Shown here one piece after another: positions 3,845 to 36,599 of a DNA stretch of 36,599 nucleotides (the first letter of the stretch is position 1; each line of letters starts with the position of its first letter). The notes beneath the pieces are model-generated. The model had not been told where the DNA came from. It worked only from the letters and a program-made list of their open reading frames with translations, and ran no database searches. The position numbers and the translations under genes are program-made. The DNA lies in IMG/VR virus record IMGVR_UViG_3300043429_000464, positions 1 through 36,599 of that record; one strand, given 5' to 3'. The DNA comes from a virus.

Positions 3845-4076
3845 GAAGGGCGATCGATTTGATGGTCGATCTCAGGATCGTGTAAACGTGTTGGTTCGGG
3901 TCGTCTGGCTCATACTTTGGACGATCCACCAGCCAGCAGCCGAGCGTGATGGATGATCTCGTCTTCTTCACCAGTTCACCGACGAGGCGGATGGTGTAGA
4001 CTTCATCGCCTTCCGCATGGTCGAGAAAGACCACCTGGTAGATGCTGCCGATTTCAAGCTTCGTCTGGGTGCTCAT
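3744..4076 (-). CDS. Small hypothetical protein, last gene of the leftward operon
   Basis: This 110-residue product has a regular, beta-rich N-terminal two thirds (KLEIGSIYQVVFLDH, YTIRLVGELV, ITLGCWLVD) and a low-complexity Ser/Pro/Ala tail. The tail is encoded in the stretch that runs antisense to the last 101 bases of the primase gene, so it may be under little selection. The start overlaps the preceding gene on the same strand (stop at 4054), as expected in this tightly packed operon. No family recognised. The N-terminal part is probably real; the exact C-terminus is less certain. Confidence 0.62.
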   Translation of the reverse strand: MSTQTKLEIGSIYQVVFLDHAEGDEVYTIRLVGELVKKTRSSITLGCWLVDRPKYEPDDPNQHVYTILRSTIKSIALLSLSPESTPTVSRPSAARRNPSPMQSGEPPASQ

Positions 4077-4422
4077 ACTGTTCGCCTTGTTCCTCGGATT
4101 CGATGGCCAGTTGCAGAGCGAACATAACGCGGGCGGCAGCGTTTACTAGGTGCGGTTCCGATCGGTCGCCACACTGCCACTGAACTAGGTGGCCCATAGC
4201 GTGGCCCATGTGCTCCTCAATCGGGATCCGCTTCCAGTTGTCCTGCCCGTACTTACGCAGTCCAAACCCGACGCATTCGGCGAGCACCCTGAGAGCCTGC
4301 ATCGGGAGAGCGTCATAACGGGCACGGGTAAAACTGTGCTTCCCTCCGTCCTTCGTCGTGACGGTTTCGCCTTCCTTTGGAACCGGCACCCAGTCCAGCC
4401 TGGTGTCCTTCTTCTTCGTCAT
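4054..4422 (-). CDS. dATP/dGTP diphosphohydrolase-like protein (PF18909/DUF5664 type), 122 aa
   Basis: The central pattern RYDALPMQALRVLAECVGFGLRKYG followed by NWKRIP, a conserved EEHMGHAMGHLVQW helix and a PHLVNAAARVMFALQ helix fits the phage all-alpha, MazG-like NTP pyrophosphohydrolase family annotated as dATP/dGTP diphosphohydrolase. Such enzymes convert deoxynucleoside triphosphates to monophosphates, balancing or purging nucleotide pools in the infected cell. No PurZ-like adenylosuccinate synthase homologue is present, so this is not evidence of base Z. It overlaps its neighbours by a few bases on both sides. Family assignment is from motif memory only. Confidence 0.75.
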   Translation of the reverse strand: MTKKKDTRLDWVPVPKEGETVTTKDGGKHSFTRARYDALPMQALRVLAECVGFGLRKYGQDNWKRIPIEEHMGHAMGHLVQWQCGDRSEPHLVNAAARVMFALQLAIESEEQGEQYEHPDEA

Positions 4423-14522: not shown

Positions 14523-15596
14523 TCAGTTGGAGGTTTTGGAAGCGAAAGCACCAGCCCAGCGAAGCGTTCGTTCGTCCGCTCCCTTCTTGGCTAGCTCGGC
14601 ACGAAGGCGGGCACGGTCTCGCTGCTCAGGAGTCAGTTCGTTCGCCGGTGCAGCACTCACTGGTGCAGCTTCACCGAGATCGACAGCCGACAGCCTGGCC
14701 TGGAGATCGTCCACCTGCTTCTGGAGGTCAGCGTTGAGCTCGCCGATCTCCTTGTTCACGATGCTGAGACATTCAGCCATCGTTTTTCCTTCGAGGAACC
14801 ACTTGGCTCCACGATCGCCAAACGCAACCATGAAAGGTTGCGCGGCCTCCAGGCTCATGGCAGCGGGTGCAGGCGTCGCCACAGTCGCGGGCGCTGCTTC
14901 CTGCTGCTGATCCTGGCCAGCGTTTTCCGCTGCTACATCAGCCATCACATCTTCTCCGTAGTGGAGGGACAGAAAACCAAGCAGTCTTGCGACCACTTCC
15001 TTTCGAGGAACGCCCTCGAAGTGTTCGGAAATAAGCGACGACACCACTGGTGCCAGGTCGCGTTTGTCGTGGATGTCAAACAGTCCGCCACGGGTCGCCG
15101 CTGGCTCGTCAACGAAATCGACAGCCCGCAATCCCTTGAGTCTCAGCGGCAGCTTCTCGCCAGGCTGGAGGTCAGCCAGGTCGGCTTGCAGCTCCTCGCT
15201 GAAGTCGGCGACAATCGACAGCCCGAAGGATTCAGGATCCTCCTCGGCGAGATCCAGGATGTACTGCCCGATGTTGCCTCTCGGGCTGTAGTCGGAAGTC
15301 TTGAGAACATGGATGTCAGCGTAGACCGCGTTTCCTTCGACGCGGAAGTTCCGAGCACGCCCGACAGAGGAGCCCAGACCGTCATTGCTCATGCTGGGAT
15401 GAGTCCAGCGGGATTTGATCCCACGGGTTGCGGCGTTGCCGTGCTCAGCGACTTGCTGGAGGGTGACGTCATCGATGAACAGCGGCCGATCGTCGTTAAG
15501 CTCGCCAGCTTCGATGACTTTGGCTCGTCGGATGATGCGGTTCTCAACTGCTTCAGGTGCCGAGCGAACGACGCTGGAACGAAACTGGTTATTCAT
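14523..15596 (-). CDS. Head maturation protease fused to scaffold, 357 aa
   Basis: The start is set at MNNQFRSSV (15596), just inside the portal 3' end. Residues 20-150 form a phage prohead serine protease: RWTHP gives a candidate catalytic His66 and ESFGLSIV a Ser127, in the order expected for the herpes-like assemblin fold. Residues about 200-357 are Ala/Gln/Glu-rich with a coiled coil (LNADLQKQVDDLQARL), the usual form of an internal scaffold released by self-cleavage. This protease-scaffold fusion would shape the prohead and then clear it before DNA packaging. Confidence 0.85.
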   Translation of the reverse strand: MNNQFRSSVVRSAPEAVENRIIRRAKVIEAGELNDDRPLFIDDVTLQQVAEHGNAATRGIKSRWTHPSMSNDGLGSSVGRARNFRVEGNAVYADIHVLKTSDYSPRGNIGQYILDLAEEDPESFGLSIVADFSEELQADLADLQPGEKLPLRLKGLRAVDFVDEPAATRGGLFDIHDKRDLAPVVSSLISEHFEGVPRKEVVARLLGFLSLHYGEDVMADVAAENAGQDQQQEAAPATVATPAPAAMSLEAAQPFMVAFGDRGAKWFLEGKTMAECLSIVNKEIGELNADLQKQVDDLQARLSAVDLGEAAPVSAAPANELTPEQRDRARLRAELAKKGADERTLRWAGAFASKTSN

Positions 15597-17037
15597 CGTT
15601 GTTGGTCTCCTCGTCCTCTGGTCCTTCGTCCTCGGTGCCTTCCGACTCCTCAATCTCAGTTGTCGGTGTGCTCACCACGGGTGCCATCGGTGCGTCTGGT
15701 GCGGGATCGGCTGAGTAGCCATACTGGGCGAGAAACTCGTCTTCTTCATGCAGCTTGCGGACAACATCTCGCCAGTCGTCGCCGTACTTCTCCCGGCGGA
15801 TCTCTGAGCGGGTTCTCAGCTTCGCCTGGATCGCCATCACGTCGCCGTTGATCTCCTGTTCTGGGTTCCAGTAGGGCACGCCAGCAGGGATCCAGTCCCA
15901 GTTGATCTGGTCGATGTTTGTGACGCCTTCTGGCATCGTCAGCAGGCCCTCAGCAATCCATTGCTGGATCTTCCAGACGGTGATCCGGTCTAGTGCTTCC
16001 TTGAGGTCTTCACGCTTGGCCTTGCAGCTCTGCTGGTACTGAATCAGTGCAGCACGGGAACCGAAGAAATTGGTGTAGGCTTCGTCGTAGAAGCTCCACG
16101 GAATATCGAGCGACTTGAGGGCAGATTGCAGGCTCAGCGTGAGGAACGCCTGAAACTCCGTCGATGGGTGGCGAGATTCCAGGAATTCAGCCTTGTCGCC
16201 TGGGTCAAGTTCCAGCTTGACTGGGCCTCTGCCTAGATCGACGCGGTATTCGTCGCCATAAAGTTCGGCATCGTCGTCGGCCATTTCTCGGGTAATGGCG
16301 AGCGCGAATAGCTGCGTGATTTTCGCCTTCGCCCGTGCGTAGTCGGTGACTTCGAGGCTGTCCTGAAAGGATGCGATCGCACTGGTCAGCGGCGACACTC
16401 CGCGAATCTGATCGAAAGAGTCGAAGTAGGCCAACTGGATGACATTGCCAGCCCGAATCTCACGCTCGAAAGTGTAATTGCCATCCTTATTCCGCTCATG
16501 GACTGCGACTCGCTTCACTCGTCCGCCAGGCCCAAGCAGAACGCCATGAATCCAGTTCTGCGTAGGATCGGTAATCGATTGCGGGTCTCTGATCCGATCA
16601 CCTTCAATCGCTTGCAAACGGCCATCGGCGAGCTTGAGGAAAAACACGTCGCCATCGATGACGCGGCGAGCCTCAGCCAAGCGAATCATCCGCCGCAGCG
16701 AATGCCTGGCCGCCACGTCGCAGTTGATCGGGCGGTTGTACCAAGCCATCAGGCTTTCGAGCTGCTCGTTAAACTGAGCATCTTCAGTCGCAGCTTGAAA
16801 CGTGAAAGTGCTCACGTAGTCCAAGTGTTTGCGAATTGCCCAGGCAGCGACCGAGAAATTGCGGTTGAGTTCCCGCGCACCTTCGATGACTCGCCGGCGC
16901 TTGTCAGGACCCAGCAGAGCATCGCTGGTCTGGATGCGGGTACCCGGATCGCGGCGGTTCTGCCCAGGTTCCGCTGCGATGTACCGCCCGAAACTCTGGA
17001 GCCATCGTTTTGCTACGCTGGGTGCCTCACGAATCAT
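15589..17037 (-). CDS. Portal protein, lambda gpB family, 482 aa
   Basis: The pattern RRVIEGARELNRNFSVAAWAIRKHLDYVSTF, then RMIRLAEARRVIDGDVFFLKLADGRLQAIEGDRIRDP, and later RGVSPLTSAIASFQDSLEVTDYARAKAKITQLFALAI is characteristic of lambda-type portals. The dodecameric ring forms the DNA entry channel at one capsid vertex. The C-terminal 50 residues are acidic (runs of Glu and Asp). The gene overlaps the protease by eight bases and the gpW-like gene by eleven, as in lambda's W-B order. Confidence 0.92.
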   Translation of the reverse strand: MIREAPSVAKRWLQSFGRYIAAEPGQNRRDPGTRIQTSDALLGPDKRRRVIEGARELNRNFSVAAWAIRKHLDYVSTFTFQAATEDAQFNEQLESLMAWYNRPINCDVAARHSLRRMIRLAEARRVIDGDVFFLKLADGRLQAIEGDRIRDPQSITDPTQNWIHGVLLGPGGRVKRVAVHERNKDGNYTFEREIRAGNVIQLAYFDSFDQIRGVSPLTSAIASFQDSLEVTDYARAKAKITQLFALAITREMADDDAELYGDEYRVDLGRGPVKLELDPGDKAEFLESRHPSTEFQAFLTLSLQSALKSLDIPWSFYDEAYTNFFGSRAALIQYQQSCKAKREDLKEALDRITVWKIQQWIAEGLLTMPEGVTNIDQINWDWIPAGVPYWNPEQEINGDVMAIQAKLRTRSEIRREKYGDDWRDVVRKLHEEDEFLAQYGYSADPAPDAPMAPVVSTPTTEIEESEGTEDEGPEDEETNNDE

Positions 17038-17317: not shown

Positions 17318-17554
17318 CTAACTATCAGGATCTGAGGATTTGGGCGGAAATTCCGAAACTTCCCGCAGGATGCTGAACTGGTTGCAGAATTTGCAACAGA
17401 CGCGAAACCGTTTGATCGATTGCCCGAGTTCGGGATGGTTCGCTGTCTGGTACGCTCCAGACTGTTTGACCAGCCCACCGCATTCCTGGCAGTGAGGGCA
17501 GCAGGGCAGCGTTTTGGTGACAACTGGCGGTCGTGGTCGCTTGTTGGTGCTCAT
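17318..17554 (-). CDS. Small zinc-finger protein, 78 aa
   Basis: The start overlaps the terminase stop by four bases (17551-17554). Residues 18-27 (CCPHCQECGG) and 53-59 (CCKFCNQ) give two pairs of closely spaced cysteines, enough for a zinc ribbon. The N-terminal residues are basic (NKRPRPP). In phage Mu and relatives a small zinc protein (Com) regulates translation, and zinc-ribbon proteins also occur as terminase accessory factors; nothing here decides between these. No separate terminase small subunit was found upstream. Confidence 0.68.
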   Translation of the reverse strand: MSTNKRPRPPVVTKTLPCCPHCQECGGLVKQSGAYQTANHPELGQSIKRFRVCCKFCNQFSILREVSEFPPKSSDPDS

Positions 17555-19701
17555 AGATAGCTCACTCTTCCTCGATCTCGCCTCGGTGGTGGTTGGTCAG
17601 GCTTGGTCGTCTCTGGTTGTGCAGGCTGATCGCCAGCGTTCGGGCTGGGCATCGCTGCTGATCGCTTCCGCTTCGGGCCAGCGTCCGATGGAAGCTTGCA
17701 ACCCTCCATCGAAGCAGCCACGCAGCAACCAACGAGGCAGTCCAGCCAGTGGTTGTCAGGTCGGTCGGGCTTGATCTTCCATTCGTCAACCGTGCGGCCC
17801 TTGCCCTCAGTCCTCACGGCGTACTCTGCGCGGAGGTGCTTGGCGATTGTCTCATGTTCCAGCGGGCTCGCCTGGTACAGCGTCAAACTGCCTGGCGTGC
17901 CTGGTTCAGTGGCTAGGCGACTGTGGAGGAATGACTTCCAGTAGTTCGCATCGAACAAAACGTGCCGAATTGGCGAGTCCTTCGCCCGATCGATTCGCCA
18001 GTGTGAACCGACAGCACGGCCCATTTTGCGCGTATGGTGGGCGTTCAGCGGATCGCTCGATGCTCCCACGCCTCGCCCGTGAGATGGGAACAGAATCGAG
18101 CGACTACCACTGCCCTGGCAGAACTGGTAAACGATGTTCCGAGACAGACCCCAGTTGGCGTCGATCATCATGCGAGACACCGGCAGCTCAAGCCCGTCCT
18201 CAGTCTTCCAGCGTCGATGGATGATCTGGTCTTCAATCGCCTTCAGTGCTTTCGCCAGCTTCGCCTCCAGCGACTCACCAGGCCAGAGTTTGGAGAAGTT
18301 GTTGCGAACATTCTGCATCCTGAAATTGGTCGTTCGCTGGCCAGGGTAGGCGCCGTATTCGACAACCGCTGCAGTGAAATCATCGCGGAACGCTGCCACA
18401 GCGTAGAACAGCAGCTCTTGCTGGACGTCAACAAATGCAACCAGCTTCGTAGAGTTCGACGGGAGAATCCCGCGTCCGGTTGATCCAGTCCGCTTGGTGA
18501 TCTCATCTTCGCTGAGGATCCGGTCGTCTGCTTTGATCTCTAGCGGCTGGTTCTGGTACTCAGCCCAGAATGCTGCCTCATCGCGGAAGTAAAGATTCAT
18601 GCAGTTTTGAACCGCTGAGATCTCATCCTCATTGAACCGATCAGGCCAAGCCGGCCGGCTTCCTTCGTCCATCGCTGCTTGGTTGTCACGATAGAACGCT
18701 GTCGCTTCGCTGGTATCTGAACCGTTTCGGAAGCACGCCTCCCGAATCTCCTGGTACCGGTTCCAGAGATCCATGTTGGTCGGCATTCCGTAGAGGATCT
18801 GCGTGCGTTCGCCGTGCCACTCTGGAGACTTCGCACGATCCAGCGACTGGTCGGCCAAGTCGCCTCGGGAAATCACCGTGCAAGCCATCACGCCGGCAAT
18901 CTTCACCTTTGGCCCAGAAAGGCCCAGAACATCGCCGTTGACGATGGCTAGCCGGTCGTCAGTCTGTGTGGCCGACTTGGCGGATTCCCGCGTCTGTGGG
19001 TCATCCAGGAGCACGTAATCGGGACGAATGACGTCACCTGATGGTAGCGTTTCTTGCTGCCCGCGAACGTCGCCGGTGATCCCGCAAACAGAGACGATGG
19101 AACCCGACGCCCGCGATCCTTCGATGGTCGGCAAACGGAGGTTGTCAGCGAGCCACTTGATACTGGTCGGCTGGCCCTGGTAGGTCTGGCCGTTGGTTCT
19201 CGCCGTCTTGCCTTCCAGCTTCACGATCGGGAGGCAAACTTCCGGGAAGTCAGCAAGCAGGAGCGGGTTAAACCTGAGCTCCGACTTGATCCCGTCGAGC
19301 AGTTTTTGCGCCTTCGGTTCAGTGGCACCGATTAGGCACAGCCATCGGCGCAGGCCGGTAAGCAGTGCCCAGGTCGCCGAGGTGATCGAGATAGTCGTCT
19401 TGCCGGATCCGCGAGGCATGGCAAGAGCAAACAGCCCGCCAGAGCGTGCGGTGGTTTCGATCCGCTCAATGACGCGAAGGTGGTCTTCGCTCCAGCCCAT
19501 GTGGAACGCTGACGGGCGGTAGATTTCGCAGAACGCCCGAAGGCTCGATTCAGCCTCAGCCCGACGCACGGGATCCGCCGGTTTCGGAATGTCGCCGATG
19601 TCCGATGCGGCTGCGTACTTGTCGCGCATCCGCTGCGCCATGTTCTCACGGTGCGCCCGGTATTCCTCGGCAAGTTGTTCCTTAGTCTTCTGAGTTCTCA
19701 C
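17551..19701 (-). CDS. Terminase large subunit, lambda gpA type, 716 aa
   Basis: The ATPase domain shows Walker A AMPRGSGKTT (94-103) and Walker B PDYVLLDDPQT (227-237). A conserved GITGDVRGQQ lies before it. The nuclease domain follows with VAFVDVQ (421-427; candidate metal-binding Asp425) and the C-terminal NHWLDCLVGCCVAAS segment typical of gpA-type terminases. The motor packages DNA through the portal and cuts concatemers. The start is a GTG that overlaps the fibre gene stop (GTGA). The tail after residue 680 is Pro/Lys/Arg-rich. A gpA type would suggest cohesive-end packaging, though no cos site is demonstrated. Confidence 0.93.
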   Translation of the reverse strand: MRTQKTKEQLAEEYRAHRENMAQRMRDKYAAASDIGDIPKPADPVRRAEAESSLRAFCEIYRPSAFHMGWSEDHLRVIERIETTARSGGLFALAMPRGSGKTTISITSATWALLTGLRRWLCLIGATEPKAQKLLDGIKSELRFNPLLLADFPEVCLPIVKLEGKTARTNGQTYQGQPTSIKWLADNLRLPTIEGSRASGSIVSVCGITGDVRGQQETLPSGDVIRPDYVLLDDPQTRESAKSATQTDDRLAIVNGDVLGLSGPKVKIAGVMACTVISRGDLADQSLDRAKSPEWHGERTQILYGMPTNMDLWNRYQEIREACFRNGSDTSEATAFYRDNQAAMDEGSRPAWPDRFNEDEISAVQNCMNLYFRDEAAFWAEYQNQPLEIKADDRILSEDEITKRTGSTGRGILPSNSTKLVAFVDVQQELLFYAVAAFRDDFTAAVVEYGAYPGQRTTNFRMQNVRNNFSKLWPGESLEAKLAKALKAIEDQIIHRRWKTEDGLELPVSRMMIDANWGLSRNIVYQFCQGSGSRSILFPSHGRGVGASSDPLNAHHTRKMGRAVGSHWRIDRAKDSPIRHVLFDANYWKSFLHSRLATEPGTPGSLTLYQASPLEHETIAKHLRAEYAVRTEGKGRTVDEWKIKPDRPDNHWLDCLVGCCVAASMEGCKLPSDAGPKRKRSAAMPSPNAGDQPAQPETTKPDQPPPRRDRGRVSYL

Positions 19702-21434: not shown

Positions 21435-22096
21435 GATCGGTAGCCTCCATCGTATCCGCGCGGAAGAAACATTGCACCAGCACTGCCGCCCGTCTGCTGA
21501 TGATCTTGTTCGTAAAGTTGAATCACCCCAGTCCGCCAGAATGCGGAGGTCGCAACAGTGACGTCAGTATTGGGCCAGCTCGTCAACGTAGCGTTGCTAT
21601 CATGCCACGCCATCTCCCAGCCCGTTCCGACTTGCCCGACAACAAAGCTCATGTTCGTAGGTGGATTCTCGATTGCGTTGGTGTCAAGACGCATCGCCGC
21701 AAATCCGGCGAACCAGCGATCGGCCGCGCCTTCCCGGTCGTTTGCTGCGGCGAATGCAGAATACCGTAGCGTCGTCGAGGTGCCGCTGTTACCGTTGGCG
21801 AATCCCGGCTGAACGGTGTACCCAGTTCCGCCACGATACACGACGACAATCAGCCCGTCAGCGCTGGTCCATGTGCCCGAAGTCTCGCTGGATGATGCTG
21901 CAATCTTGTATCCGATTCGGTAAGCCGTGAGGCTCCCTGAAACAGTCCCGTGATTGATCCAGCCAGATGGTAAAGCCGGGACGGTCGTTGCACCGTCATT
22001 GAAAGCAAAAGCCATCAGCAAGTCACCAGCGGCATGAGTGCCGAGGGTGACAGATGATGTTGCGGCTGCGGCTGAACTGATGCGGGAGATTGTCAA
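21431..22096 (-). CDS. Fibre-associated beta-rich protein, 221 aa
   Basis: The start is TTG at 22096, chosen because it overlaps the upstream stop (TTGA) and no closer ATG keeps the conserved start. The protein is Ala/Thr/Ser/Gly-rich and beta-type (LIVVVYRGGTGYTV; DLLMAFAFNDG), ending in a Gly-rich tail (RGYDGGYRS). This resembles jelly-roll tip proteins found beside phage fibres that bind cell-surface glycans. No enzymatic motif is evident. It is co-translated with the fibre gene. Confidence 0.74.
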   Translation of the reverse strand: MTISRISSAAAATSSVTLGTHAAGDLLMAFAFNDGATTVPALPSGWINHGTVSGSLTAYRIGYKIAASSSETSGTWTSADGLIVVVYRGGTGYTVQPGFANGNSGTSTTLRYSAFAAANDREGAADRWFAGFAAMRLDTNAIENPPTNMSFVVGQVGTGWEMAWHDSNATLTSWPNTDVTVATSAFWRTGVIQLYEQDHQQTGGSAGAMFLPRGYDGGYRS

Positions 22097-22590
22097 ATTT
22101 GCGGCTCCGTATCTGGGTTACCATCCCATGCGTCGATCGCCGCGATGTTGGCGTTGTGCTTGCTAGAGGACATCTTACGCAATTCGTTTTGACGTCTTTC
22201 TTTCTTCATCGCCTGCCAGGCAGCGACAATCTGGGCGTCCACCTCGGGCAGTTTGTTCAGCCCACAAAGCGACACCATCCGACGACCAACGGCCGCGATG
22301 GCCTGACACGATGGGTGAGAGATGGCGAGCAACTTCGCATTGAATTCAGCATCGCCAATCGGCAGACCTGATCCGCCAGCCTGATGAACCACCCAGCCAA
22401 GCCCGATCGACTGAAGGAAGGAAATTAACGGTTCGACATTCGCGTCGCCAATGATCTGTGCGATGCCCAGCAGCGTCCACATCTGGCGATCCACCAGCAG
22501 GTGTGATGGATCCTTCGCAGCGGCGAGGATCTCAGCTTCGGTGAGCGACTCCCAGTTGTCGATCGCCTCGATGACTTTTCGGTAGCTCAC
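22093..22590 (-). CDS. Hypothetical protein, 165 aa, fibre/lysis region
   Basis: Unrecognised. It starts at a GTG overlapping the upstream stop (GTGA). The N-terminal part has several helices (MWTLLGIAQIIGDANVEPLISFLQ) and the C-terminal third is strongly basic (KKERRQNELRKMSSSKHN) before an acidic tail. There is no signal peptide or clear membrane helix. It could be a fibre chaperone, since it sits directly upstream of two fibre genes, or a terminase small subunit given its place before the terminase, but there is no helix-turn-helix to support the latter. Confidence 0.7.
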   Translation of the reverse strand: MSYRKVIEAIDNWESLTEAEILAAAKDPSHLLVDRQMWTLLGIAQIIGDANVEPLISFLQSIGLGWVVHQAGGSGLPIGDAEFNAKLLAISHPSCQAIAAVGRRMVSLCGLNKLPEVDAQIVAAWQAMKKERRQNELRKMSSSKHNANIAAIDAWDGNPDTEPQI

Positions 22591-22844
22591 AGTGGGCCTC
22601 CTGCCTTGCGTTCGATTTCAATCAGCCTGCCTTCGAGCTGCGACACCTTGGAATTGATCTGCAACCGATCTTCGTAGCACTCATCCGACGCAGCAGAGCA
22701 TTCGTCCAGCCGCTTCTGCATGTCCGCAATCTGGGCTGCGTTGCGATCCTCGGAACGCTTCCAGAGAAACGTGGTTGCAGCAGCCAAGCCACCGATCGCG
22801 GTGACAAGCCAGCCAAAAACGGTTTGCGGGTTCTCAGGGTTCAT
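22587..22844 (-). CDS. Membrane-anchored coiled-coil protein (holin/spanin-like), 85 aa
   Basis: One N-terminal membrane segment (about residues 8-27, FGWLVTAIGGLAAATTFLW) is followed by a basic KRSEDR and a coiled coil reaching nearly to the C-terminus (MQKRLDECSAASDECYEDRLQINSKVSQLEGRL). The layout, a short membrane anchor plus helical rod, is that of inner-membrane spanins or of class III holins. It sits beside a peptidase gene in a likely lysis cassette. Without functional data either assignment is tentative. Confidence 0.72.
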   Translation of the reverse strand: MNPENPQTVFGWLVTAIGGLAAATTFLWKRSEDRNAAQIADMQKRLDECSAASDECYEDRLQINSKVSQLEGRLIEIERKAGGPL

Positions 22845-22853
22845 TGGGCGTCC

Positions 22854-23888
22854 TCAGTCAATGACAACAAGTGGCGGGCTGTCGGGCATGTCGATTTCTT
22901 CCAGGGTCATCGTGGTTGGCAACTTCGCTTTGTACCAGCGGTCGAGTTCCTCGGCCGGGATGTTGTACATCGCCTTCGGGCCCCAGGAAGTGTTGTTCAG
23001 GATGAAAAACAGGTTGCCAGAGCGGTCGTAGAAGTGCCCGCTCCAGCCCATGTTATGGGCCCAGCGATCGTTCGGGTTGCGGGCGTGAATGTCGAACCCG
23101 TCGCGGTGCGTGCCAGTCTTCCTGATAGCAATCATCGAGCACATGAACGCAGTCTTCATCTGCTTCGATGCTTCCAGGTGCTCATCGACTGAGTTGATTT
23201 TGACGGATGCCAGCAGGCGAGAGTCGCAGAACTGGCGAAGCGATTCGATATGCTCCCAGTTTCCGAAAGCACGGTAGAGCGATGGCTTGCCGATTGGCTC
23301 TGGCAGCATCTTGGGAGCGTCGGCATCAAGGGTTCTCAGCAGTTCCAGCAGCTTCGGTGTCGAGCAGTCGAGAACTCCATCTTTCATGAGACTTTCGGCC
23401 ATAGGCTCGCAGTAGAGCCCGTCGCTTCCCCGCATGTTTGCCCGCTTGCGTGCCATGCCGTACGTTTGAGGTGCGTAAGGTGCGATCGAACTGGGCCCAA
23501 ACTCCGTCGTCCCAAGATACTCCTCGCCGTCGCCTCTCGCCGCGATTTGGGCAATTGCCCGCTGTACCCAAACGCGAAAAGTATTCGAGGCAACACAAGA
23601 GCCAATGTCCTGCGGAAGCCAGTCGAATTTTCGGCCCCATGTGATTTCCTCTAGGGTGTTCAGGCAAACGCTGTCGGCCCGCATCCCTTTGCGTTCCATC
23701 GCCTCCGACCAGCGACGCTGGATGCCTGGCAGAACGCGGTTGGTGGTTGGCCTGGATCGGTACGCAACCGGCATGTCCGCCGCCGCTCGCTCATGGTACT
23801 CGGTCTCATACCGAACCATCTCCGCCTCGGTCAGCGTTCCATCGCCCCAGCCCTGCGGCCCGATTGCGTGATCCAATCCGGTGCTCAT
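22854..23888 (-). CDS. Papain-like (C1-type) cysteine peptidase, 344 aa
   Basis: The catalytic set of a papain fold can be read in order: a Gln93 oxyanion residue and Cys98 in QDIGSCVAS, His278 in WAHNMGWSGH, and Asn298/299 in NNTSWGP (papain: QGSCGSCWAF, H, NSWG). The domain between is long and includes a YGMARKRANMRG segment. No signal peptide. Peptidases of this kind are uncommon in phage lysis or tail regions; here the gene sits between a secreted protein and a membrane protein in the late operon. It may digest a host surface or wall protein for exit or entry, or process virion proteins. Confidence 0.8.
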   Translation of the reverse strand: MSTGLDHAIGPQGWGDGTLTEAEMVRYETEYHERAAADMPVAYRSRPTTNRVLPGIQRRWSEAMERKGMRADSVCLNTLEEITWGRKFDWLPQDIGSCVASNTFRVWVQRAIAQIAARGDGEEYLGTTEFGPSSIAPYAPQTYGMARKRANMRGSDGLYCEPMAESLMKDGVLDCSTPKLLELLRTLDADAPKMLPEPIGKPSLYRAFGNWEHIESLRQFCDSRLLASVKINSVDEHLEASKQMKTAFMCSMIAIRKTGTHRDGFDIHARNPNDRWAHNMGWSGHFYDRSGNLFFILNNTSWGPKAMYNIPAEELDRWYKAKLPTTMTLEEIDMPDSPPLVVID

Positions 23889-24658
23889 CTGCCAGCCTCC
23901 AGACCGGCCGCGATGCAGGACCAGTAGGAATTGAGGCTGGCTTTGTCGAGCGGCCAGCGGGCGGTAAGATCCTGGTTGATCTGGGCGAAGAGGTCGCGGA
24001 CGCGCTGCCGTTCGGTCTCAGGGATCGTCTGGGTGATCGCCCGGATGTCGTTCTGAAGCAGCCCGCCAGCGGTGGCAACCGTCAGCGTCGGGTCGTCAGT
24101 AATGCGGGCAGCGTAGGAGCGGTACACGGCAGCCAGTTCCAGCCGCTTCGGGACACCGACAGCCCAGGTGGCGACTCGTTTGGCGAGTTCGTCGAAATCC
24201 TTCGGCAGGTTGTCAGGGATCGGTGGCTGTGGTGGCGTTGGAGGTGTTGGTGGTTGCGGTGTTCCGAGGGTGACGACCATTGAGAACCGAGCGATTCCCT
24301 TTTCGGGATCGAAGCCGATCGCCTCGATGAGGTACTCACCTGGCTCGCCACTGAGGACTAGGGACTGCCGGCCGGTCTCCCGGCTGATCTCCTGCAGCTC
24401 GCCTTTCTCGGTCAGCGATCGGCGAGCGGTCACATCCCAGAACCGACAGTCAGTGCTCACCTCGATCAGTGCGACTTGCTGCTGTGTCACCTGCGCCTCG
24501 CCGTCGATCAGTACGAGCGAGCCAAGGAGGGTGGGAGGCTCAGATGAGGCGATCACAAGTGCCGAGCGGTTTTGAGCACTGAGCGTGATCATTCCGTACT
24601 GGCCGACGGCGGGCGAGGCGACTAGAGCAATCAGCAGGATCGAGGCGAGGAGCCGCAT
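23885..24658 (-). CDS. Secreted protein with signal peptide and Pro-rich linker, 257 aa
   Basis: Residues 1-19 (MRLLASILLIALVASPAVG) form a clear Sec-type signal peptide with a likely cut before Gln20. The mature N-terminal half is beta-rich (SLVLSGEPGEYLIEAIGFD). A Pro/Thr linker (PQPPTPPTPPQPPIP) leads to a helical C-terminal half. A signal peptide is unusual for a virion protein and suggests a periplasmic or surface role, such as a spanin-like or lysis accessory protein or superinfection exclusion factor. It overlaps the peptidase gene by four bases. No lipobox cysteine is present. Confidence 0.75.
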   Translation of the reverse strand: MRLLASILLIALVASPAVGQYGMITLSAQNRSALVIASSEPPTLLGSLVLIDGEAQVTQQQVALIEVSTDCRFWDVTARRSLTEKGELQEISRETGRQSLVLSGEPGEYLIEAIGFDPEKGIARFSMVVTLGTPQPPTPPTPPQPPIPDNLPKDFDELAKRVATWAVGVPKRLELAAVYRSYAARITDDPTLTVATAGGLLQNDIRAITQTIPETERQRVRDLFAQINQDLTARWPLDKASLNSYWSCIAAGLEAGR

Positions 24659-24659
24659 A

Positions 24660-24971
24660 TCACAGCCCCAGGAGTTTCAAAAGGATCGGAAGGACGATCG
24701 GCAGGATCTCTTTCAGGAAATTGGCGAGCCCGTCCCAATTGATCCCGTAGCCGGAATCGCCGTACCAGACAGCCGTGCCAAACTTGGTGGGATCGGCGTC
24801 GTACTGCTCGGCCAGTTCCTCGACCACGGTGTCCTGGAGCTGACGCAACCGGCCAGGGAACAGGCGAAGCGATCGAACGGCCAGGCGTTCACGCAGGCTC
24901 CCGTGCTCTTTGGCCCAACTCAGAACCTGCGAGTAAAATGCTTTTTCGTCAGCGGTGTAGCGAATGCTCAT
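24660..24971 (-). CDS. Small protein with C-terminal hydrophobic helix, 103 aa
   Basis: The first gene of the late block after a 295-base gap. A strong ribosome site (AGGAGG about nine bases upstream) decides the ATG. The N-terminal 70 residues are charged and helical; residues 84-103 (NFLKEILPIVLPILLKLLGL) form a hydrophobic or amphipathic helix rich in Leu/Ile/Pro that could insert in a membrane. A holin-type or membrane-active role is possible from this and from the neighbouring signal-peptide and membrane proteins, but no family is recognised. Confidence 0.72.
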   Translation of the reverse strand: MSIRYTADEKAFYSQVLSWAKEHGSLRERLAVRSLRLFPGRLRQLQDTVVEELAEQYDADPTKFGTAVWYGDSGYGINWDGLANFLKEILPIVLPILLKLLGL

Positions 24972-25266
24972 TGTGCGTACCCTCCTACCTACCTAGAAAC
25001 CAAAAACCGCGAAAATCGGAACTGCCGGAAGGAATTTTGTCGGATTTTTTTTGGCTCCGCTACTGGCGAGAGCGTGAACACTTGGGAGGACGATAAACGC
25101 CAGTATTAGCGATAGTAATAAATATCAGCGGACAGATGGTGTCTCAGTGCGAGGGCAGGATGGGTAGGCTAGGAAAGGACCCGCCATTTTGGCAGTCTAG
25201 GAATGAGACAAGAAAGTCTCAAAATGCGACGGCTACCCTGGGTGAGTGGGTGGTACTTTTTGGTCA
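24972..25266. other. Intergenic region upstream of late genes
   Basis: About 295 bases with no convincing coding frame. It contains an AT-rich stretch (about 25092-25128), one GGTGTC site near 25137 and a 6-bp inverted repeat with a 6-base loop (TGAGAC/GTCTCA, 25204-25221). A leftward late promoter is expected here or upstream of the resolvase gene, but I cannot point to a confident -35/-10 pair. Confidence 0.5.
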
Positions 25267-25614
25267 TCATCGCCTTCTCACCGCGACCACTAGCAGCCCG
25301 CCTGGCTTGCACTCTGCACGCTCCAGCACCAGTCGATCGATCTGTGAGTCATCATCGATCAGCCCGCCGTGAACGATGGCGTCGAGGCTTGCCTTCGTAA
25401 GGTTGTCAAGGTCTCGCCTCCTGCGATCCGGCGGGTGAACCAAAATCTCAACCTCGAGCCTAGCATCGCCGAACGGCTCCATCCCGGCCAGCAGCTCGGT
25501 GACGCGATCGCGGTACAGCCTGCCAGCTCGGCTCAGGATGGTACGTGCGCCGACTCGTCGCCAGAGCTGATTCACGCTGGGCGGGAACGGTAGCAGGATC
25601 TCAACTTGGTCCAT
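25267..25614 (-). CDS. rusA: RusA-type Holliday junction resolvase, 115 aa
   Basis: The N-terminus ILLPFPPSVNQLWRR and the core DLDNLTKASLDAIVHGGLIDDDSQIDRL carry the RusA signature, including the acidic residues (DxDN and the DDD cluster) that bind magnesium. Length (115) is close to E. coli RusA (120). The enzyme cuts four-way DNA junctions, resolving recombination intermediates or branched concatemers before packaging. It is the first leftward gene, reading away from the AT-rich divergent region. A GGAGG ribosome site lies eight bases before the ATG. Confidence 0.93.
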   Translation of the reverse strand: MDQVEILLPFPPSVNQLWRRVGARTILSRAGRLYRDRVTELLAGMEPFGDARLEVEILVHPPDRRRRDLDNLTKASLDAIVHGGLIDDDSQIDRLVLERAECKPGGLLVVAVRRR

Positions 25615-25618
25615 CGGT

Positions 25619-25657
25619 TCAGCCTCCGTGTCCGCCTTGTCTCTTATATATAGACAC
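25619..25657 (-). CDS. Possible 12-residue leader peptide before the resolvase
   Basis: A GTG start with a near-perfect AGGAGG site (25662-25667, four bases away) opens a 12-codon frame (VSIYKRQGGHGG) that ends five bases before the resolvase's own ATG region, overlapping the GGAGG that serves the resolvase. Ribosomes leaving this leader could affect resolvase translation. It may equally be chance. Confidence 0.25.
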   Translation of the reverse strand: MSIYKRQGGHGG

Positions 25658-25691
25658 TCTCCCTCCTTTTTACCATAAAACTACTCAAGGA

Positions 25692-25936
25692 GACACCCTT
25701 ACTGACACCTGACGATCGAAACTACTATATATATTTATTTCCTTATTTTTATTGGGTATTCTTCAAAATTAGGTGTCAGGAAAGGTGTCGGGATTTTTGG
25801 TATCGTCAATGACGCCTCAAAAAAAAACCGTTCGACACTCGACGGCTAATGGACGGATCGGTTGACGCATTACTTAGGAAATCTTTGACTCGCCACTAGC
25901 CAGTAATCTTACATTCGATACATTACAGTAGGTGTC
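25692..25936. repeat. AGGTGTC repeat set (putative operators or iterons)
   Basis: The 7-mer AGGTGTC occurs at 25771-25777, 25783-25789 and 25930-25936 on the plus strand and at 25704-25710 on the minus strand, with close variants at 25692-25698 and 25833-25839. Two copies are spaced 12 bases apart, start to start. TGACACCT (25703-25710) and AGGTGTCA (25771-25778) form an 8-bp inverted pair flanking the AT-rich block. The last copy lies 33 bases before the first rightward start codon. Confidence 0.55.
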
Positions 25937-25968
25937 TGTTTTGTTTTCTGTTTTGTAAGGAGCTTGGT

Positions 25969-26238
25969 ATGAGTTTTCGTCGTGTGATTTCGATTCCACT
26001 TCCACAGGGCTGGGCGGAAGCGATTAAAATCCAGTTGAACGGCATGCCGATTTCAACGTGGATTCGAGAGATTGCCATCCGCAACGAACTGGAGCGACGA
26101 GGCGTTCTAATGGTGCCACGTGACGTCGCCAAGAAACTGATGCGGGATGCAGTGCCGATCAGTGCCGATCTGCTGGATCGGGCGGATCCAGAGGTCGCAG
26201 AAGAGGCAATACTTGCGATGCGTCGAGCACAAAAGTAG
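25969..26238 (+). CDS. Putative ribbon-helix-helix-like regulator, 89 aa
   Basis: The first rightward gene, with an AAGGAG site (25957-25962) six bases before the ATG. The N-terminus SFRRVISIPLPQGWAEAIKIQLNGMPISTWIREIAIRNELERRG suggests a short beta strand followed by two helices, the layout of ribbon-helix-helix DNA-binding proteins, and it is basic there. The C-terminus is acidic (DLLDRADPEVAEEA). A regulator binding the AGGTGTC sites just upstream is an attractive but unproved idea. The gene is followed directly by a strong intrinsic terminator, so it is its own transcription unit. Confidence 0.68.
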   Translation: MSFRRVISIPLPQGWAEAIKIQLNGMPISTWIREIAIRNELERRGVLMVPRDVAKKLMRDAVPISADLLDRADPEVAEEAILAMRRAQK

Positions 26239-35771: not shown

Positions 35772-36599
35772 TGCAGCCACGCTGGTACCAAACTGAAGCA
35801 GTTGAGGCGGTCGCGTCGTGGATGGCAACCGCTTCAGGCAACCCAGCAATCATCCTGCCAACTGGTGCTGGCAAGTCGCTGGTGATAGCCATGCTGGCCG
35901 ATCGAATCATCGCTCAAGGCGGGCGGGTGGCGATCTTCCAGCATCGGGAGGAACTCATCCGGCAAAATGCCGAAAAGTTCGTGACGCTTCGGCCAGATGT
36001 GCCCATTGGTATCTGGTCGGCATCACTGAAGCAGAAGAACGCACAGCCATCAGTCGTGTTCGCTGGGATCCAGTCAGCCTATCGGGAAGATGTCCTGCTT
36101 AACTTCGGATGGCGGGATCTCATCATCGGCGATGAGTGCCACCTGGTTCCATCGGATGGCGACGGGATGTGGCGGCAGATGCTCGGCTACTTCGCGAAGA
36201 TGAATCCGGCAAGTCGATTTGTCGGGCTCACCGCTTCGCCTTGGCGACTCGATTCTGGCTCCATCATCGGGCCTGACAAAATGCTGCACGATGTCGCGTT
36301 CCAGGCTCCGCTAGTGCGGCTGATCGAGGAAGGCTACCTTTGCAACTTGATTTCCAAGGATCCCGATTTCCATGTCAGCACCGATGGCGTCGGCAAGGTT
36401 GGCGGCGAATGGAACCTGAAGCAGCTTGATCAGGCAGCCAGCAAGGATGAGCAATTGGTTCGCCAGGCTGTCGCCGAGCTGCTGCACCGAACGGCCGGTC
36501 GTCATTCCTGCCTGGTGTTCTGCTGCGGTCGCAAGCACGGTCAGATGGTCGCCTCGATGATCGCAGATGCTCAGCCTGGGAATGTGGCGTACGTCGATG
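35768..36599 (+). CDS. DEAH-type superfamily 2 helicase, N-terminal part (continues at 1-900)
   Basis: The frame starts at an ATGATG overlapping the previous stop and runs to the end of the window, then continues at base 1, for 570 residues in all. The N-terminal domain has motif Q-like RWYQTEAVEAV (5-15), Walker A ILPTGAGKSL (29-38), a GIQSAY motif, the DECH box in IIGDECHLV and the LTASPWRLD motif III region. The product unwinds DNA in an ATP-dependent way. It is most like phage helicases encoded beside primase-polymerases, and the primase follows two small genes later. Confidence 0.93.
   Translation, partial: MMQPRWYQTEAVEAVASWMATASGNPAIILPTGAGKSLVIAMLADRIIAQGGRVAIFQHREELIRQNAEKFVTLRPDVPIGIWSASLKQKNAQPSVVFAGIQSAYREDVLLNFGWRDLIIGDECHLVPSDGDGMWRQMLGYFAKMNPASRFVGLTASPWRLDSGSIIGPDKMLHDVAFQAPLVRLIEEGYLCNLISKDPDFHVSTDGVGKVGGEWNLKQLDQAASKDEQLVRQAVAELLHRTAGRHSCLVFCCGRKHGQMVASMIADAQPGNVAYVD
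36581..36599. repeat. Terminal direct repeat, right copy (circle closure)
   Basis: This is identical to 1-19. Removing one copy gives a 36,580-bp circle with the helicase frame intact. See the left copy. Confidence 0.93.

Follow-up and report, generated by a model that had tools for sequence, protein, structure and literature searches.

A papain-like cysteine peptidase as a putative lysis enzyme of tailed phages infecting Planctomycetota

The window, i.e. the whole stretch of 36,599 nucleotides that was analysed, carries an exact 19-bp repeat at its two ends (1-19 and 36581-36599, no strand assigned), and joining these ends restores one continuous 592-aa helicase ORF. The IMG/VR record is classed as linear, yet the end repeat and the restored ORF indicate a complete genome that is circularly permuted, so that statements of gene absence are meaningful. 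An ORF of 344 aa, encoding a papain-like cysteine peptidase, is located exactly at 22854-23888(-), and its orthologues are found at 81-84% identity in 8 other viral contigs. It belongs to a small cassette whose order is: hydrophobic small protein, secreted partner, peptidase and one-TM coiled-coil protein. The first of these (24660-24971(-), 103 aa) has a C-terminal hydrophobic segment and a position conserved in the cassette. The secreted partner (23885-24658(-)), whose signal sequence ends in ASPAVGQY, is translationally coupled to the peptidase gene, the start of which overlaps its stop by 4 nt (ATGA). On the other side of the peptidase lies the gene of an 85-aa protein (22587-22844(-)) with an N-terminal TM helix followed by a coiled coil, a shape reminiscent of holins or i-spanins. 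It is followed by the gene of a 165-aa protein (22093-22590(-)) that is conserved in synteny, including in L062, a phage whose terminase is 66% identical to that of the window. A homologue of the 85-aa protein (L006:4477-4731) matches the Rz-like spanin family phrog_2466 (E 3.8e-4, with the caveat attached to coiled coils); assignments of holin and spanin in the cassette, made by shape and weak matches, are thus weak. The Pfam scan of the window also gave matches to barstar (E 6e-4) and to the ribosome modulation factor (E 6e-5).

The preliminary description had read a full Gln-Cys-His-Asn papain set in the 344-aa protein, and the first three residues stand. In a joint alignment of 53 members of the family, Gln93 (oxyanion-hole Gln, codon 23610-23612(-)) and Cys98 (nucleophile, 23595-23597(-)) are nearly invariant, and Trp276, His278 (catalytic His, 23055-23057(-)) and Ser301-Trp302-Gly303 are invariant. 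The Gln, Cys, His order of C1 peptidases is therefore kept, and each of the 8 window-clade sequences that span the three residues retains them. The Asn is less clear: the column ahead of Ser-Trp-Gly is occupied by Asn in the majority of relatives, by Gln in some clades and by Thr (Thr300) in the window clade. The motif of the window protein is L-N-N-T-S-W-G instead of N-S-W-G, Asn298 and Asn299 being shifted (codons 298 to 300, 22989-22997(-)), so the fourth catalytic residue of the set is not secure. When the protein was shuffled 20,000 times, the motif set never appeared. All fetched loci together contain 2,481 ORFs with a length of 250 aa or more, and each of the 144 motif matches among them belongs to the peptidase family; the shuffle test is the cleaner of the two, as homology or a related motif had served to select many of the loci.

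An AF2 model built on the 53-row joint alignment has a mean pLDDT of 54 and a pTM of 0.55, i.e. moderate confidence; an earlier model from nine near-identical sequences (pLDDT 31) was discarded. In the retained model, Cys98 heads a helix (98-118) and His278 sits in a strand (266-287) of the barrel, as the papain fold requires. Foldseek against the PDB ranked xylellain (E 4.8e-5), Lpg2622, papain and cathepsin S at the top, and VIA-align gave Z scores of 12.5 for xylellain, 11.1 for Cwp84 and about 10.8 for papain. Nearly all of its top 50 chains are C1 peptidases, papain-family enzymes scoring 10-11. Matches in a viral structure library include C1 peptidases of uncultured phages and, weakly, mycobacteriophage LysA proteins. 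At the sequence level, a search of the PDB retrieved papain alone with an E value above 1, and the window protein and ten relatives gave no Pfam (PF00112) or NCBIfam C1 match; the peptidase is therefore called C1-like and is not filed in PF00112. Because the model by itself is of moderate confidence, motif and profile were weighed with it, and the three predict, with moderate confidence, a papain-like (C1-like) fold, in agreement with what had been proposed from the residues. The protein resembles xylellain-type C1 peptidases in its predicted fold, in the order and role of Gln, Cys and His and in the Ser-Trp-Gly that follows the third residue; it differs from them by its variable Asn, the lack of a recognised propeptide and an identity of only 13% to xylellain in the structural alignment. 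It also shares the papain fold with Cwp84 of Clostridioides difficile, the second-ranked structural match, which acts on an envelope protein. However, Cwp84 is a bacterial surface-layer cysteine protease with a lectin-like domain and does not come from a phage, and the likeness of folds shows no common substrate.

The window clade appears to be one very divergent branch, on a long stem, of a large phage family. L062 carries at the syntenic position a very different gene whose product contains the motif in its canonical form, QGIGDCVSWGW...YHCM...VNSWGNSWG, and a DNA pattern for Q-G-x-G-x-C-V-x-W-G-W was found in at least 120 viral contigs. Forty-seven diverse members from these contigs were gathered in an alignment (A2). 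Comparison of the window clade with A2 by hhalign (E 4.8e-5, probability 68) aligned Gln, Cys, His and Ser-Trp-Gly; this match and the synteny with L062 argue for homology. The family comprises more than 100 phage genes that previously had no Pfam, NCBIfam or informative PHROG name, and tblastn found no relative of the peptidase in 50,697 isolate phages. Thirty-three long phage contigs were examined, and 25 of them (three from the window clade included) carry the gene; 19 of these 25 had been chosen for carrying it, while the other 6 are among the 14 chosen by terminase similarity alone. In the contig behind L067 (G033), the peptidase gene (25111-26109) is split into three consecutive frames and is apparently broken or misassembled.

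The preliminary description had placed the peptidase beside a secreted protein and a membrane/coiled-coil protein, and both neighbours were confirmed within a cassette that is conserved in relatives. There, a 103-159 aa protein with a hydrophobic segment, accompanied in many cases by a small TM protein, precedes a secreted or anchored partner of 140-260 aa and the peptidase, after which come small TM or secreted proteins. The partner family lies directly upstream of the peptidase in 110 of the 131 family loci with a candidate ORF; the partner of the window clade occupies the same place with weak similarity. Some downstream proteins of relatives have CxxCxGxG motifs or thioredoxin folds, and in many relatives secreted proteins of one or both kinds are encoded just downstream of the peptidase, as at L206:8963-9475, L213:5254-5955, L215:2647-3219 and L216:11337-11906. 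These proteins may act as redox partners for a cysteine peptidase in the periplasm. The cassette adjoins different terminases and, in one clade, lies between the genes of an S78 prohead protease and of the MCP; it is thus a modular unit, passed among phages whose head and terminase genes are unrelated. Of the 'lysis/tail-fibre region' initially assigned to the locus, a lysis-type context is supported, whereas the varied neighbours across phages do not place the cassette in a tail-fibre module as such.

Among the distinct full-length peptidase genes, 62 of 97 encode an N-terminal hydrophobic segment (TM or signal); for other genes of comparable length the count is 45 of 686. In the peptidases the segment typically lies within about ten residues of an ATG preceded by an SD sequence, and is largely the trait of one clade rather than the result of many independent gains. 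Its presence in most relatives suggests that the enzyme probably acts outside the cytoplasm. No export signal was found in the window peptidase or its clade, even when the upstream in-frame extension was included. Most relatives, with this segment after the start codon and small membrane proteins in the cassette, thus resemble the SAR and signal-peptide endolysins known from phages that infect Gram-negative bacteria, although others, among them the window protein, lack the segment. They differ from these endolysins by a papain-like domain in place of a glycosidase, transglycosylase or amidase, and release from an anchor would be hypothetical in their case.

The window virus probably infects Planctomycetes, as judged from the carriers of the peptidase family and from terminase homologues. 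The large terminase subunit of the window (GpA type, 17551-19701(-)) has full-length homologues in 54 of 392 sampled Planctomycetota genomes, with 46-51% identity at best, versus 26-28% identity over half its length with isolate phages. Most of these 54 genomes do not carry the peptidase. The peptidase family was found in 13 of the 392 genomes and nine times in a genome collection, where 7 of the 9 finds are in records named as Planctomycetes, including a prophage of Blastopirellula marina DSM 3645 (homologue at L216:9782-10951), and the other 2 are short or metagenome bins. Identified bacterial carriers of the family are hence almost all Planctomycetota. Searching genome contigs with the window-clade profile gave no match, the peptide patterns being too narrow.

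No muralytic family was detected among the window genes, whether by Pfam scans of all plausible genes or by a genome-wide search for six such families; the initial observation that none is visible therefore held. Amidase_2, Amidase_3, M23, SLT, NlpC/P60, lysozyme and CHAP were each found in 0 of 33-34 related contigs in a search for these seven families that had positive controls in known genomes. The genes of the B. marina prophage likewise encode no muralytic domain. The peptidase would thus be the only lysis-type hydrolase recognisable in the window genome. Classical endolysins had been expected in relatives devoid of the peptidase, but this complementarity was not seen: eight papain-negative contigs with related terminases were also without the families searched. 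The absence of these families is therefore not tied to the peptidase alone, and the papain-negative phages may use yet other lysis enzymes. The product of 4054-4422(-), for which PHROGs partly give the annotation 'endolysin; inhibits RNA polymerase', was rejected as a lysin, since it has no amidase domain and matches phrog_801, a diphosphohydrolase family. A dATP/dGTP diphosphohydrolase is reported among the window genes (Pfam, E 4.7e-18), the function of phrog_801, and this product is a probable dATP/dGTP diphosphohydrolase-like protein. The 'endolysin' label looks like a carry-over that could mislead automatic annotation.

Taken together, the Gln/Cys/His set, the predicted fold, the cassette, the restriction to phages of planctomycetes where hosts are known and the lack of a recognisable peptidoglycan hydrolase suggest, with a probability of about 0.55, that a group of tailed phages with Planctomycetota hosts uses the peptidase as its lysis enzyme, an analogue of endolysins. 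The lack of an export signal in the window clade, its divergence, the pLDDT of 54 and a third catalytic residue (the Asn position) that is not conserved speak against it. A precedent for papain-fold peptidases in phage lysis exists within the multi-domain LysA endolysins of mycobacteriophages, whose N5 papain-like cysteine peptidase domain is used in host lysis (PMC3314691). The present enzyme shares with N5 its papain-like nature. However, LysA usually combines an amidase or glycosidase with wall binding, whereas the peptidase is a single-domain protein according to Pfam and is accompanied by no other muralytic gene.

The lysis process could be viewed as follows. In most relatives, the N-terminal segment would take the peptidase through the inner membrane, as SAR endolysins or exported ones do; without this segment in the window clade, release would depend there on a membrane protein of the cassette acting as a holin. 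Once in the periplasm, the active-site Cys would attack peptide bonds of the envelope, either in wall or lipoprotein tethers or in the stem or cross-link peptides of peptidoglycan. In relatives, the thioredoxin-like or CxxCxGxG proteins of the cassette may keep this Cys reduced or loosen disulfide-rich wall proteins. The predicted substrate could thus be wall protein or peptidoglycan cross-bridges. Planctomycetes have a peptidoglycan sacculus and lysozyme breaks up their cells (PMC4432640), so a papain-fold enzyme that acts as a peptidoglycan endopeptidase is just as conceivable. A broader proposal, that in Planctomycetota phages as a group a secreted papain-like peptidase replaced muralytic endolysins, lysis proceeding by proteolysis of the envelope with the help of the secreted partner and of thioredoxin-like proteins acting on a disulfide-rich wall, is tentative and considerably less probable than a lysis role of the peptidase itself.

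The same cassette would also suit a periplasmic or secreted effector that, for instance, excludes superinfecting phages, degrades surface receptors or modifies the host envelope during infection or lysogeny. This alternative is rather doubtful: it would account for the secreted partner, the thioredoxin-like and zinc-motif secreted proteins and the presence of the family in prophages, but the cassette is surrounded by late structural genes and occurs in 25 of 33 long contigs (many chosen for it; 6 of 14 of those chosen by terminase), and these phages would then be left with no visible lysis enzyme. A virion-associated or maturation peptidase that processes capsid or tail proteins during assembly, the other possibility raised in the preliminary description, is less probable still. 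The peptidase does belong to the late gene block of the window, upstream of tail-like and terminase genes, and lies among head genes in one clade. However, its signature is that of a cysteine enzyme, whereas prohead proteases are Ser/His enzymes whose gene lies between those of the portal and the major capsid protein, and relatives have a dedicated S78 prohead protease adjoining it. The window itself encodes a probable prohead serine protease (14523-15596(-)) between the portal gene (15589-17037(-)) and the major capsid gene; its product has no profile match but resembles its counterpart in the B. marina prophage (blastp E 7e-10). Separate prohead proteases, together with export or anchor segments that would carry most relatives away from cytoplasmic assembly, disfavour a maturation role, and so does the mobility of the cassette among phages that are unrelated in their head and terminase genes.

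Lastly, the window-clade protein might be a catalytically degenerate papain fold with a structural or regulatory role, as the Thr in the Asn column and the long branch would allow. This is improbable, and the least probable of the readings considered here, since Gln, Cys and His are kept in the 8 clade sequences spanning them and since papain depends less on its Asn than on the other three residues of the set.

The putative lysis role is of interest because the envelope of Planctomycetes was for a long time regarded as made of protein, whereas peptidoglycan has since been established as one of its components. No paper on phage lysis of these bacteria was found in the literature library searched. 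With a family of more than 100 genes, a conserved cassette and a prophage in the cultured strain B. marina DSM 3645, the question can be put to a direct test. Should the enzyme lyse cells, it would represent either a proteolytic lysis route or a papain-fold peptidoglycan peptidase, neither of which, to our knowledge, has so far been described as the only lysin of any phage group. These phages may open their hosts with a peptidase in place of the usual endolysin.
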